Assembly (NCBI RefSeq): GCF_025836975.1 | Contig: NZ_CP107548.1 | Span: 2,852,001-2,916,000, forward strand | Length of the DNA: 64,000 nt | Source of the DNA: Pollutimonas sp. M17 | GTDB lineage: Bacteria; Pseudomonadota; Gammaproteobacteria; Burkholderiales; Burkholderiaceae_B | Reading direction: 5' to 3' | Part shown: positions 60,116 to 63,770 of the stretch, piece after piece | How positions within the stretch are numbered: position 1 is the first letter of the stretch | Layout: each line of letters begins with the position of its first letter | Translations under genes and position numbers: made by a program | Notes under the pieces: model-generated | Database searches by the model: none | What the model was told of the DNA's origin: nothing | Seen by the model: only the letters and a program-made list of their open reading frames with translations

Positions 60116-62161
60116 TTATAAAACCTGTTCGACGGCTGCAGCGACGTGCTCGGCCGTCAAGCCAAAATACTTGAACAATGCACCGGCCGGCGCGGATTCG
60201 CCGTAGGTGTCCAAACCGACCACGGCGCCATCCAGGCCGACGTATTTGTACCAGCCGGCGGTAACGCCCGCCTCGACGGCGACGCGCGGCATGCCCTTGG
60301 GCAGCACGCTCTCGCGCCATTGCGCGTCTTGCGCATCGAACACATTGGTGCAAGGCATGGACACCACGCGGACCGCGATCCCCTTGGCGGCCAGCTGTTC
60401 CTGCGCACCCAGGGCCAGGGCCACTTCGGATCCCGTGGCAATGATCACCGCGCGGGCGTCCTGCGCGTCGCGCAGCACGTAGCCGCCGCGGCTGATGCCT
60501 TCGATGGCCTGCGCGTCGCGCGCCACGAAAGGCAGGTTCTGGCGCGACAGCAGCAAGGCGCTGGGACCGCCATCGCGCACGTCCATGCCCACGCTGGCGG
60601 GACGCTGAATGGCGTAGGCCCAGGCCGCCGCCGTTTCCGTGGTGTCGCAGGGGCGCCAGACATGCAGGTTGGGGATCAGGCGCAGGCTCGCGGCATGCTC
60701 GACCGACTGGTGGGTGGGGCCGTCCTCGCCCAGGCCGATGGAGTCGTGCGTGAACACGTGCACCACCCGCTGCTTCATCAGCGCCGCCATGCGCAGGGCA
60801 TTGCGGGAGTAGTCGGAAAAGGTCAGGAAAGTACCGCCGAAGGGCAGGTAGCCGCCATGCAGGGCCACGCCGTTCATGACGGCGGCCATGCCGAATTCGC
60901 GCACGCCGTAGTTGATGTGGCGGCCGAAGCGCAGATGCAGGTCGCCGGCGCGCACGGGCTCGACGCCCTTCCAGTCGGTCAGGTTGGAGCCGGTCAGGTC
61001 GGCAGACCCGCCCAGCATCTCGGGCAGCATCTCGACGAAAGCGGTAATGGCCAGCTGCGAGGCCTTGCGGGTGGCGACGGTCTCGGCCTTCTGGTTGGTG
61101 GCGTCGACAAAGGCGCGTGCGCGCTCGGCGAAGTCGCCGGGCAGCTCGCTCAGCATGCGGCGCTGAAACTCAGCGGCTTCGACGGGATAGGCCTTGGCGT
61201 AGGCATCGAACCGCGTTTGCCATTCGCCCTGCTGCTGTTGTCCTTTTTCCTTGCCGTCCCAATAGGCGTAGATTTCGGCGGGAATATCGAAGGCGGGGTA
61301 AGGCCAGTTCAGCGCCTGGCGGGTGGCCTGGATTTCGTCCCCACCCAGCGGAGCGCCGTGCACCTTCTCGGTGCCGGCCGCATGGGGAGCGCCCTTGCCG
61401 ATGACGGTGCGGCAGCAGATAAGAGTGGGGCCTTTGCCTTGGCCGGCCAGCTTCTGGGCCTGGACGATGGCGGCATCGACGGCTTCGATATCATGACCGT
61501 CGACATCGCGCAGCACGTTCCAGCCGTAGCTTTCAAAACGCTGCGGGGTGTTGTCGCCGAACCAGTTTTCGACGCGCCCGTCGATGGAGATGCCGTTGTC
61601 GTCGTAGAAGACGATAAGCTTGGACAGCTTCAGCGTGCCGGCCAGCGAGCAGGCTTCATGCGAGATGCCTTCCATCAGGCAGCCGTCGCCCACGAAGGCA
61701 TAGGTGTAGTGGTCGACGATGGCATGGCCGGCGCGATTGAATTCCTGGGCCAGCAGGGCTTCGGCCAGCGCCATGCCGACGGAGTTGGCCAGCCCCTGGC
61801 CCAGGGGGCCGGTGGTGGTCTCGATGCCGGAGGTAATGCCGACTTCGGGATGGCCGGGTGTGCGGGAATGCAGTTGCCGGAAGTTCTTGAGCTCTTCGAT
61901 GGGCAGGTCGTAGCCGGTCAGGTGCAGCAAGGCATAGATCAGCATGGAGCCGTGGCCGTTGGAGAGCACGAAACGGTCGCGGTTGGCCCAGGTGGGATCG
62001 GCGGGGTTATGGCGCAGGTGGCGCGTCCATAATGCCTCGGCAATATCGGCCATTCCCATGGGGGCGCCGGGATGACCCGAATTGGCTTGTTGAACCGCAT
62101 CCATGGCCAGGGCGCGTATAGCGTTGGCCATGGACGAATCTTGGGCAGGCGTAAGGCTCAT
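60116..62161 (-). CDS. tkt: Transketolase
   Basis: The ThDP enzyme of the pentose phosphate pathway moves two-carbon units. It has 681 residues. Motifs are [64 protein letters not shown] with [11 protein letters not shown] (ThDP/Mg), [35 protein letters not shown] and [15 protein letters not shown]. The start [10 protein letters not shown] agrees with the family. It is the first gene of tkt-gap-pgk. Its promoter must lie in 62162-62300, where a TACCGC-N4-GCGGTA dyad (62264-62279) is present. Confidence 0.97.
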
Positions 62162-62307
62162 TGAAGACTCGCAAGAGGGCTGGGTCCGCGTGGCGCGGCC
62201 GACCCTCGTCATTGAAGGTTTACAAAGCCTCTGATTTTACCACCGGGGGGTGTATCTGTTATTTACCGCGATTGCGGTAGGGCTTATGGCTTGTTGAGAT
62301 CAGGAAA

Positions 62308-62536
62308 GGCTCGCGGGGAGTGAGGGCTGTGCCGGGCTAACGCGCCAGCGGCCCTGGCTTTGCCAGGGCTTCCCGCGCAGCCGAACAGCGCGGGGGCGGC
62401 CGCGAACTCGCGCGTCGTACAGCCACTGGCTGTACGAAAACGTCGCGCTCAGACAGCGCGGCCTTGCATCCCCCGCGCCGTCCGACCGCGCGGCGCTGCG
62501 CAAACCGCCCGGCACAGCCCTCACTCCCCGCGAGCC
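62308..62536. repeat. Nested palindromic element 1 (229 bp)
   Basis: The outer arms 62308-62336 and 62508-62536 are a perfect 29-bp inverted repeat. Nested inside are GCGCGGGGG/CCCCCGCGC (62388-62396, 62470-62478) and GGCCGCG/CGCGGCC (62398-62404, 62457-62463). The centre is a perfect 10-bp hairpin TCGTACAGCC-ACT-GGCTGTACGA (62415-62437). A side hairpin GCCCTGGC-TTT-GCCAGGGC lies at 62351-62369. The central hairpin is within a few bases of the midpoint of the outer arms. It encodes no protein that I can support. Confidence 0.9.
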
Positions 62537-62629
62537 GACACAGGCCGGCTCAATAGCGGAGAAAAACGCCAGCCGAAGCCAAATCCAAACCCTCTTCCCG
62601 AGTGCGATTTCGTCTCATTTCTGCTTCAA

Positions 62630-62854
62630 GGCTCGGGGGGCTTGGCCTGGGGCTGGCGGTTCACGGGCAAGCCGCGCCGGCCCAGGAAACGGGGATGCAA
62701 GTGCGCGGCTGTTTGAGCCCGGGCTTATGGACGGCCGGGGGCCGTCCATTCGGGCGAGTTCCGCGCACGCCCCGTTTCCTGGGCCGGTGCGGGTAGTCAC
62801 GGCGCAGCCGGGACCTTGCTCGTCTAGCCAGCCCCAGGCCAAGCCCCCCGAGCC
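62630..62854. repeat. Nested palindromic element 2 (225 bp)
   Basis: The outer arms 62630-62657 and 62827-62854 are a perfect 28-bp inverted repeat. Nested inside are GCAAG/CTTGC (62667-62671, 62815-62819), an 18-bp perfect pair (62677-62694, 62770-62787) and GTGCGCGG/CCGCGCAC (62701-62708, 62761-62768). The centre is ATGGACGGCC-GGG-GGCCGTCCAT (62727-62749). The architecture is the same as element 1, and the termini are nearly the same (GGCTCGSGGGG), while the interiors differ. Confidence 0.9.
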
Positions 62855-63035
62855 GTTCAACAAAAAACACCCAATAGCGAAACAAAAAAACCGCAACACC
62901 TCAGTAATAAAAAAGCGAAGCAAATCATCAGAAAAAAGACGTCAGCACAACACCCACCTTGACCATAGCCGCATCGGACAATACGCCATAAAGTATGATG
63001 CCCTCACAGTCGTCCGCAGACAGCCCCCTCACCAT

Positions 63036-63770
63036 ATGGCCATCCCCCGATTCTTCTGCCCCACGCCCCTGGCGGCCAACACCACCCTCGAGCTCCCTGA
63101 CGCGCTTGCGCACCATGCCATACGTGTCTTGCGCCTGAAGCCGGATTCAGACATCGTCCTCTTCGATGGCAAGGGCGGCCAATACAGCGCGAAGCTCATC
63201 ATCGACGGAAAGCGCGGCCACGCCGCCCTGGGCGAACACGATCCCGTCGAAACCGAACTCGACGGCCGCATCACCCTGGTCCAGGGCATACCCTCCGGCG
63301 ACAAAATGGACTGGATCATAGAGAAAGCCGTTGAACTGGGCGCCGTCCGGGTCGTTCCCATCGCCGCTCGCCGTAGCGTATTGCAGCTGACCGGCGACCG
63401 CCTCCGCAAGCGGCTGGAACACTGGCGCCGCATCGCCCAGGCCGCCAGCGAACAAAGCGGCCGCAACCGCATCATGGACATCGCCGAACCGTGTTCACTG
63501 GACCATTACCTGGCCAGGGACATGACCGACGCCGCAGCCACCCTCTTCTGCCATCCCGACAGCCCATGCAGCCTGGCTCAGGCCCTGCAGGCACAACAGA
63601 CGGAACTCGCCCTGTTGGTCGGCCCCGAAGGAGGATGGTCGGATGAGGAACAGGATCTGGTGGCGCGCTGCAAGCTGACCGGCGTCAGCTTCGGCAAGCG
63701 CGTCCTGCGCACCGAAACCGCGGGGCTCGCGCTGATTGCGGCCGTCAGCGCCCTGCAAGGCTGGAGCTAG
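63036..63770 (+). CDS. rsmE: 16S rRNA m3U1498 methyltransferase RsmE
   Basis: The 244-residue SPOUT methyltransferase has an N-terminal PUA-like domain (about 1-75, MAIPRFFCPTPL... HHAIRVLRLKPDSDIVLFDGKGGQY). The trefoil-knot domain follows (QGIPSGDKMDWIIEKAVELGAVRVVPIAARRS, EQSGRNRIMDI). The SAM loop is ALLVGPEGGWSDEEQDL and GKRVLRTETAGLALIAAVSAL. The frame is open upstream through the palindrome, but the family begins at ATG 63036. It diverges from tkt across the palindromic spacer. Confidence 0.95.
   Translation: MAIPRFFCPTPLAANTTLELPDALAHHAIRVLRLKPDSDIVLFDGKGGQYSAKLIIDGKRGHAALGEHDPVETELDGRITLVQGIPSGDKMDWIIEKAVELGAVRVVPIAARRSVLQLTGDRLRKRLEHWRRIAQAASEQSGRNRIMDIAEPCSLDHYLARDMTDAAATLFCHPDSPCSLAQALQAQQTELALLVGPEGGWSDEEQDLVARCKLTGVSFGKRVLRTETAGLALIAAVSALQGWS

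Follow-up and report, generated by a model that had tools for sequence, protein, structure and literature searches.

The palindrome under study (element 2; 62630..62854, 225 nt, folding on the plus strand) and its neighbor element 1 (62308..62536, 229 nt, folding on the minus strand) are, on balance, best explained as a single copy of a non-autonomous, MITE-like element of the Alcaligenaceae that carries structured RNA modules, with the two palindromes as its outward-facing halves. Both lie in the window, the whole stretch of 64,000 nucleotides of Pollutimonas sp. M17 DNA that was analyzed. They are the same module in opposite orientation, as judged from fold and arm comparison, and belong to a dispersed repeat family with about thirty copies in the genome. 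Base-pair changes within the family are compensated and one strand is selected to fold. In a relative, here G001, units of the family possess terminal inverted repeats and target duplications. From these data we infer that the modules are transcribed and have a function.

Locus and fold of the two elements

The twin elements occupy the spacer between two divergently oriented genes, a transketolase gene on the minus strand (60116..62161; TIGR00232) and a gene for an RsmE-type 16S rRNA methyltransferase on the plus strand (63036..63770; NF008692). The coordinates given for the transketolase gene are those of the scanned stretch; its start is uncertain, with alternatives at 62212 (longest open reading frame) and 62131 (simple gene finder). 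The longest open frame of rsmE (62727-63770) begins within element 2, so that an automatic gene call could extend into the palindrome. The center between the modules (62537..62629), to which no strand is assigned, measures 93 bp instead of the 94 bp initially reported. Beyond element 2, an A/C-rich, G-poor flank was found on the plus strand (62855..62960; A 0.51, C 0.27, G 0.11, T 0.10). The region 62150-63060 contains a single sigma-70-like match, identified by consensus match alone, which lies on the minus strand between element 1 and the transketolase gene (62234..62262) and outside the center of the twin elements.

The fold of element 2 has an energy of −190.9 kcal/mol (z −13.4), that of the minus strand of element 1 an energy of −198.7 kcal/mol (z −15.9), and in both cases 0/200 dinucleotide shuffles were as stable. 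In element 2, stems were assigned on the plus strand from the fold together with arm complementarity (P1 and P2) or pairing analysis (P3), and the unpaired segments from the core alignment, motifs and conservation. The outer stem P1 consists of perfect 28-mers (62630..62657 and 62827..62854), in agreement with the initial annotation. It leads to a three-way junction with the side hairpin P5 (62796..62814), which is present at the same place in other copies. The second long stem, P2 (62672..62694 with 62770..62792), has 96% complementary arms and comprises 23 bp, where a nested stem of 18 bp had been described. A conserved 6-nt bulge ATGCAA (62695..62700) marks the boundary between P2 and P3 (62701..62708, paired with 62761-62768). 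The internal loop above P3 is formed by CTGTTTGA on the 5′ side (62709..62716), which contains most of the motif TGTYYGAGC, and by GAGTT on the 3′ side (62756..62760), the end of the motif GCGAGTT. The terminal hairpin P4 (62717..62755) has an upper part of 10 bp (62727-62736 with 62740-62749) and the loop GGG (62737-62739); this central hairpin, as well as the nesting of the stems, had been recognized correctly. The copies have an architecture in common, with modules of about 225 nt that comprise the outer stem P1, the junction from which the side hairpin branches, a long P2, the conserved 6-nt bulge, P3, the conserved asymmetric internal loop and a P4 capped by 3 nt.

Elements 1 (minus strand) and 2 both carry GATGCAAG and the pair TGTYYGAGC...GCGAGTT at the same place of the fold, inside stems that differ in sequence, and the description of their interiors as unrelated has to be abandoned. 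A global alignment of the two elements resulted in 61% identity over 223 positions; since this alignment is uncontrolled and places the GATGCAAG motifs out of register, it is the common motifs that provide the evidence of kinship.

The repeat family in the source genome

A blast search with element 2 against its own genome revealed five further places, and the folds there represent one architecture. The motif pair TGTYYGAGC...GCGAGTT was found 20 times in the 3.85-Mb genome vs. 0 times for the reversed pattern; the match L016, located inside a coding frame, was dropped as a chance hit. The 20 cores fall into two subgroups of identical stem order, 11 whose bulge resembles ATGCAA (group A) and 9 with GTAAGA (group B). 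MAFFT and RNAalifold yielded a poor consensus for all 20 cores, and the structure was set by hand on the 11 group-A cores of the genome, from which the covariance model R1 was built. Eight of the nine group-B cores were aligned and left out of R1. The model matches the cores of element 2 (62681-62783, plus strand) and element 1 (62383-62483, minus strand). In total, R1 identified 24 elements in the genome (26 rows minus two minus-strand echoes) and 29 in the 23 sources searched (31 rows minus two minus-strand echoes). As the copy at position 2839261 lies outside these 23 sources, the genome contains at least 30 copies.

The outer stems differ from copy to copy, whereas the unpaired bases of the interior are best conserved, which is the reverse of the conserved ends and variable interiors proposed at first. 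The terminal pattern noted at that time is indeed common to elements 1 and 2. A search of the whole genome for this pattern with a partner at a gap of 190-220 bp retrieved only these two elements; being confined to the window locus, it does not serve as a family signature. A search of Rfam gave a best match of E 0.036 with 29.9 bits, compared to a gathering score of 150, and no match at all for four distant loci, so that an RNA already in Rfam was rejected.

Several other repeats were observed near the modules. A second type of palindrome, about 150-200 nt in length and containing GGCGACTTTCGGGGCCGAGC, adjoins the R1 module within about 600 bp in the loci L154, L157, L162, and L168. It faces some of the single copies and is not detected by R1. 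Tandem arrays are located on the outer side of the modules in L081 (6816-6952 and 5970-6071, with units of 43 and 38 bp) and, as seen by eye, in L005 (about 43 bp) and L155 (20 bp, about six copies). The motif TCAAGAA occurs within the arrays of L081 (right side) and L005, and a 16-bp inverted repeat with a 5-nt loop (AAGGCCTGAGTCCGGT) was found close to the module at L005:1773-1809.

Compensatory changes and conserved loops

The initial annotation had suggested a family in which pairing is kept while the stems change, and the comparison of copies bears this out. Among the 11 cores, 98.3% of the cells form a standard pair and 27 of the 37 pairs are changed on both sides. Double changes were counted in 88 cells vs. 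24 in shuffles, next to 3 one-sided changes and 7 unpaired cells. All five measures of covariation gave 0/500 shuffles, and sliding the alignment by 1-3 columns lowered the paired fraction to 36-42%.

Compensatory changes were also found when copies from related species were compared that resemble each other in their flanks. This comparison covered seven pairs with similar neighborhoods, six closer ones and one across genera. In the six closer pairs, 32 double changes are of the Watson-Crick type; single changes led to G.U in 11 cases and to C.A in 4, and pairing was broken by 8 further single and 3 double changes. For the seventh pair, which is 60% identical and whose alignment is not to be trusted, the numbers are 17 Watson-Crick double changes, 9 to G.U, 7 to C.A and 23 breaking ones. 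In the copies L131:5004 and L093:157, whose flanks are alike, P2 is swapped as a block on both arms. This looks like conversion from another copy, and inter-copy conversion therefore accounts for part of the compensation.

In the model columns, unpaired positions reach 1.45-1.64 bits, compared to 0.72-0.89 bits for paired positions. These values come from three sets of cores, one of them found by R1 and another consisting of 83 cores from motif-found loci, for which the loop conservation is consequently in part built in.

Strand of folding

On the strand of the model, the cores contain 103 G.U vs. 13 C.A combinations, a count that the model may favor. The outer stems were detected outside R1 in a strand-symmetric manner, excluding stems too near to the locus ends or too weak. 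Here, G.U outnumbers C.A by 117 to 23 (107 of 112 elements) and, in a larger set, by 191 to 51 (176 of 182 stems); in the same 176 stems 160 G.A are opposed to 25 C.T. The direction of the mismatches is alike in 20/21 and 21/22 of the genomes that show a difference. The genome set of the strand and energy tests comprises 25 genomes, maybe fewer, as some may duplicate named records. From pairing in DNA alone, equal numbers of G.T and C.A are expected, and the large excess of G.U over C.A on one strand only indicates that this strand folds. Regional mutation bias is not the cause: the content of G+T on the folding strand is 0.387 beyond the 3′ side and 0.448 on the 5′ side (174 of 182), and in flanks poor in G+T a C-to-T or A-to-G bias would push in the opposite way.

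The folding strand is also the more stable one in 166 of 174 elements, but the same applies to 83 of 90 shuffles, with a mean gain of −9.8 kcal/mol compared to −7.6 kcal/mol in shuffles. This energy difference is mostly due to composition and was rejected as proof of the strand, so that the assignment rests on the mismatch types.

A functionless palindrome, cruciform in DNA or plainly perfected by template-switch correction, would agree with the ratio of double to one-sided changes in the first alignment (88 to 3) and with the block replacement that occurs on both arms. Neither the strand asymmetry in 20 of the 21 genomes with a difference nor the conservation of unpaired bases follows from such correction, and we regard this explanation as improbable.

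RNA is most simply the carrier of the folding strand, with single-stranded DNA as the alternative carrier. In the latter case, the folding strand would act as a substrate of transposition or replication, like the ends of IS200/IS605 or the attC sites of integrons. The strand asymmetry cannot separate the two, because G.T and G.A mismatches are tolerated better in DNA as well, and the transposon ends and duplications in G001 would suit a DNA substrate. However, inverted ends in combination with 8-bp duplications, as found in G001, mark double-strand transposition of the DDE type and not single-strand transposition, and conserved loops within variable stems are typical of RNA. A single-stranded DNA substrate is considered rather unlikely, and an RNA is preferred.

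Arrangement of the copies and gene context

In the loci searched, neighboring copies less than 1.3 kb apart are without exception arranged minus-then-plus, that is outward-facing (46/46 pairs, at least one of which was counted twice because L119 and L202 are the same place). In G001, 13 such pairs align as one larger unit. The palindromes had initially been treated as separate elements, a view that does not agree with this arrangement, and the window pair is likewise taken to form one larger unit. Two independent structured repeats that merely lie side by side, each conserved for a local function in the transketolase-rsmE promoter region, would account for the uniqueness of the terminal pattern at this locus. 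Against this stand the outward orientation of all side-by-side pairs and the presence of about thirty similar copies, to which both modules belong, which leaves such a local origin with very little plausibility.

For the 79 copies with both neighbors known, the flanking genes are convergent in 39 cases, codirectional in 33 and divergent in 7, as classified with a crude gene finder trained on the window. The twin elements of the window, located between divergent genes, are thus an exception to the usual context. For 24 of 29 copies in the own genome, the closest gene on one of the two sides has its end facing the copy, and those genes would read the non-folding strand.

Both the preference for gene ends and the prevalence of convergent flanks would be in line with a hairpin acting in the sense transcript of the neighboring gene, either as a back-up terminator or as a stabilizer of the 3′-end, like REP, ERIC, and NEMIS. 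The folding strand, however, is antisense to the nearest gene, and the window twin is flanked by divergent genes. In addition, the scan of the spacer for intrinsic terminators gave only one match, inside element 1, vs. 1.2 expected. A role in the sense transcript is hence held to be unlikely. The repeat resembles intrinsic terminators in being a GC-rich hairpin near gene ends; it differs from them in that the spacer scan showed no T-tract after element 2, on which ground a plain intrinsic terminator was rejected, and in that the units of G001 insert at T/A tracts.

Ends, duplications and transposases

The 13 aligned twins of G001 constitute one unit with the ends GGTTCTTCG...CGAAGAACC, located beside runs of T or A, several of which resemble the tails of terminator hairpins by eye. 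The pattern of the terminal inverted repeats gave 43 matches in this genome vs. 0 in the reversed control. In total, 22 units with a length of 465-772 bp were identified, at which T or A tracts are duplicated over 8 bp. Their flanking octamers match at 6.18 of 8 positions on average, and 11 of the 22 units reach 7 or 8; this includes the poor cases L292 (0), L189 (3), and L280 (4), which were kept. Permutation within the T-tract and A-tract classes resulted in a mean of 5.49, and the observed value was reached in 0/20000 permutations.

For the site L176 of G001, nine congeners match the left flank only, the right flank being without match. Behind the orthologous gene, the unit is absent in six of eight congener loci read, again with the left flank matched only; in the remaining two, it is the opposite side of the gene that is seen, and L316 was left out. 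Among eight single copies read in the own genome, six have an end of the TTCTTRAG type, on one side only. The end search across all fetched loci was passed by 9 units, of which 7 are from G001. At the window copy, inspection of the sequence by eye revealed neither clear ends in the form of terminal inverted repeats nor a recognizable target-site duplication; by analogy with the G001 units, this copy would have arisen by the same kind of insertion. With its ends and duplications in G001, the repeat works like a MITE.

Insertion sequences of the ISL3 family generate 8-bp AT-rich duplications and have a family end consensus. The units are similar to them in that their ends begin with GGYTCT and their 8-bp duplications are AT-rich. 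ISL3-type transposases are present in some relatives. In G001, only a weak kind of match and no full-length ISL3 transposase was found, and DDE_Tnp_ISL3 gave no match at the places of the units. The ISL3 copies of G437, which belongs to the genus of G001, have the ends GGCTCTACATCATAAAAGGGGGA, compared to GGTTCTTCGAARAATTTCGG in the G001 units, and because of these differing ends ISL3 was rejected as the driver. Among ISL3-type transposases with readable ends, no autonomous partner sharing the unit ends was found. The accessible part of PMC4133298 gives no duplication length for ISL3.

In the own genome, two adjacent matches at G000:C1:3133109-3133349 represent a degenerate remnant of an ISL3-type transposase. 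A weak partial match to DDE_Tnp_ISL3, in a frame of about 400 aa and in some cases with in-frame stops, recurs in most genomes (e.g., G000:C1:1607544-1607831) and is unlikely to be an insertion sequence.

Distribution in other genomes

R1 was positive in at least 16 of 41 genomes, the own included, and with stricter filters (E 1e-4) in at least 71 of 250 genomes of the family, again including the own, from at least 23 of 43 genera. In the 250-genome scan up to 16 candidates per genome were scored, and 179 genomes had no R1 match at E 1e-4 among the matches listed. The motif pattern of group A was found in 73 stretches of named genomes, nearly all of them Alcaligenaceae, with the genera Pusillimonas, Pollutimonas, Parapusillimonas, Paralcaligenes, Candidimonas, and Alcaligenes. 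Four matches of this pattern in assemblies of Bacteroidia, Planctomycetota (two), and Actinomycetota had no R1 match. Across the phylum, a looser motif was present in 39 of 398 genomes; many of these matches appear to be due to chance, and the reversed pattern was found as well. In G122 (two places), G245, and G400, which belong to other families of the same order, the motif lies within large hairpins, each with a second hairpin behind it, and the same holds for G165, assigned by its kinship label to another order of the same class. This arrangement is absent from G328, and one folded match of the phylum-wide search (L264) forms no hairpin of this kind.

The second hairpin was observed at the distant loci L251, L253, L254, and L257, from G122, G245, G400, and G165, with sequences such as CTTTCTTT...AAAGAAAG. 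In G122, a more distant genome, an outward-facing pair is located at G122:C1:187069 (−) and 187791 (+). Spurious open reading frames encoding 'FERSEF' presumably derive from such repeats, and a text search of the literature for 'FERSEF' retrieved nothing relevant.

Blastn against phages and plasmids gave no match for element 2 or for the relative at L257. The relative at L254 matched 245 plasmid records, none of which covers 80% of the query; among the best 15 of the 245, 14 are short (6-8% of the query) and one, H1 from Variovorax, covers 13% in two pieces. On these results, plasmid or phage cargo was rejected. Between genera, 22 pairs of copies have gene neighbors in common, too few to prove vertical inheritance.

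Comparison with described repeats

No published description of this repeat family was recognized in literature searches of titles and abstract openings. By description rather than by sequence, the nearest families in print are BRE and the Bor repeats. Bordetella belongs to the same bacterial family as the source genome, and like its Bor families, the present repeat is a stem-loop repeat. The Bor repeats in the accessible part of PMC1590033 are 26-30 bp in length, while Bor-2 is an intergenic repeat of 167 bp with 17 copies in B. bronchiseptica (PMC1590033, PMC2267715, each as available in part). As compared by description, the present repeat might be identical with Bor-2. BRE is a dispersed, mobile-looking chromosomal repeat of the Betaproteobacteria and part of the transcribed sRNA bprJ; in Bordetella it measures 75-91 bp and is arranged in tandem in several loci (PMC3110155). 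Unlike the present repeat, it is described without a large palindrome in the accessible part of that paper.

Bacterial MITEs such as NEMIS/Correia, ERIC, and RU-2 can carry transcribed RNA structural motifs, according to the part of PMC2229807 available. The present repeat is likewise small, dispersed and mobile in appearance, but differs from them, by description, in its two outward multi-helix modules, conserved loops, compensatory stems and strand-specific fold. From REP/RAYT, short GTAG-tagged palindromes with a Y1 transposase, it differs in length and architecture.

Proposed role and significance

The mode of action considered most likely combines these observations. The unit is probably moved by a putative transposase acting in trans and inserts at T or A tracts, as shown in G001. 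Outward transcription would yield an RNA in which the stems serve as scaffolding, while a protein would recognize the conserved loops or these would build a tertiary motif. This RNA may serve the element itself, e.g., by restricting transcription of itself and of adjoining gene ends; if so, insertions just behind genes would be tolerated. That the modules shield the inserted unit against transcription would be our best guess.

Small repeats in bacterial genomes are commonly regarded as passive debris, whereas the present family has maintained an elaborate single-strand fold. Together with the transposon-like units of G001, the compensatory changes and conserved loops point to a real role, be it of an undescribed RNA or of a single-strand substrate. 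For genome annotation, the family accounts for one kind of odd intergenic palindrome rich in GC, and caution is advised with gene calls made across such sequences. More tentatively, and with some doubt, the modules could represent a new class of structured RNA, defined by the bulge and the internal loop, which occurs as outward pairs in small transposable elements, is old enough to extend beyond the Alcaligenaceae to other families of their order and to one genome from a different order of the class, and may be needed for the spread of these elements or their tolerance by the host.
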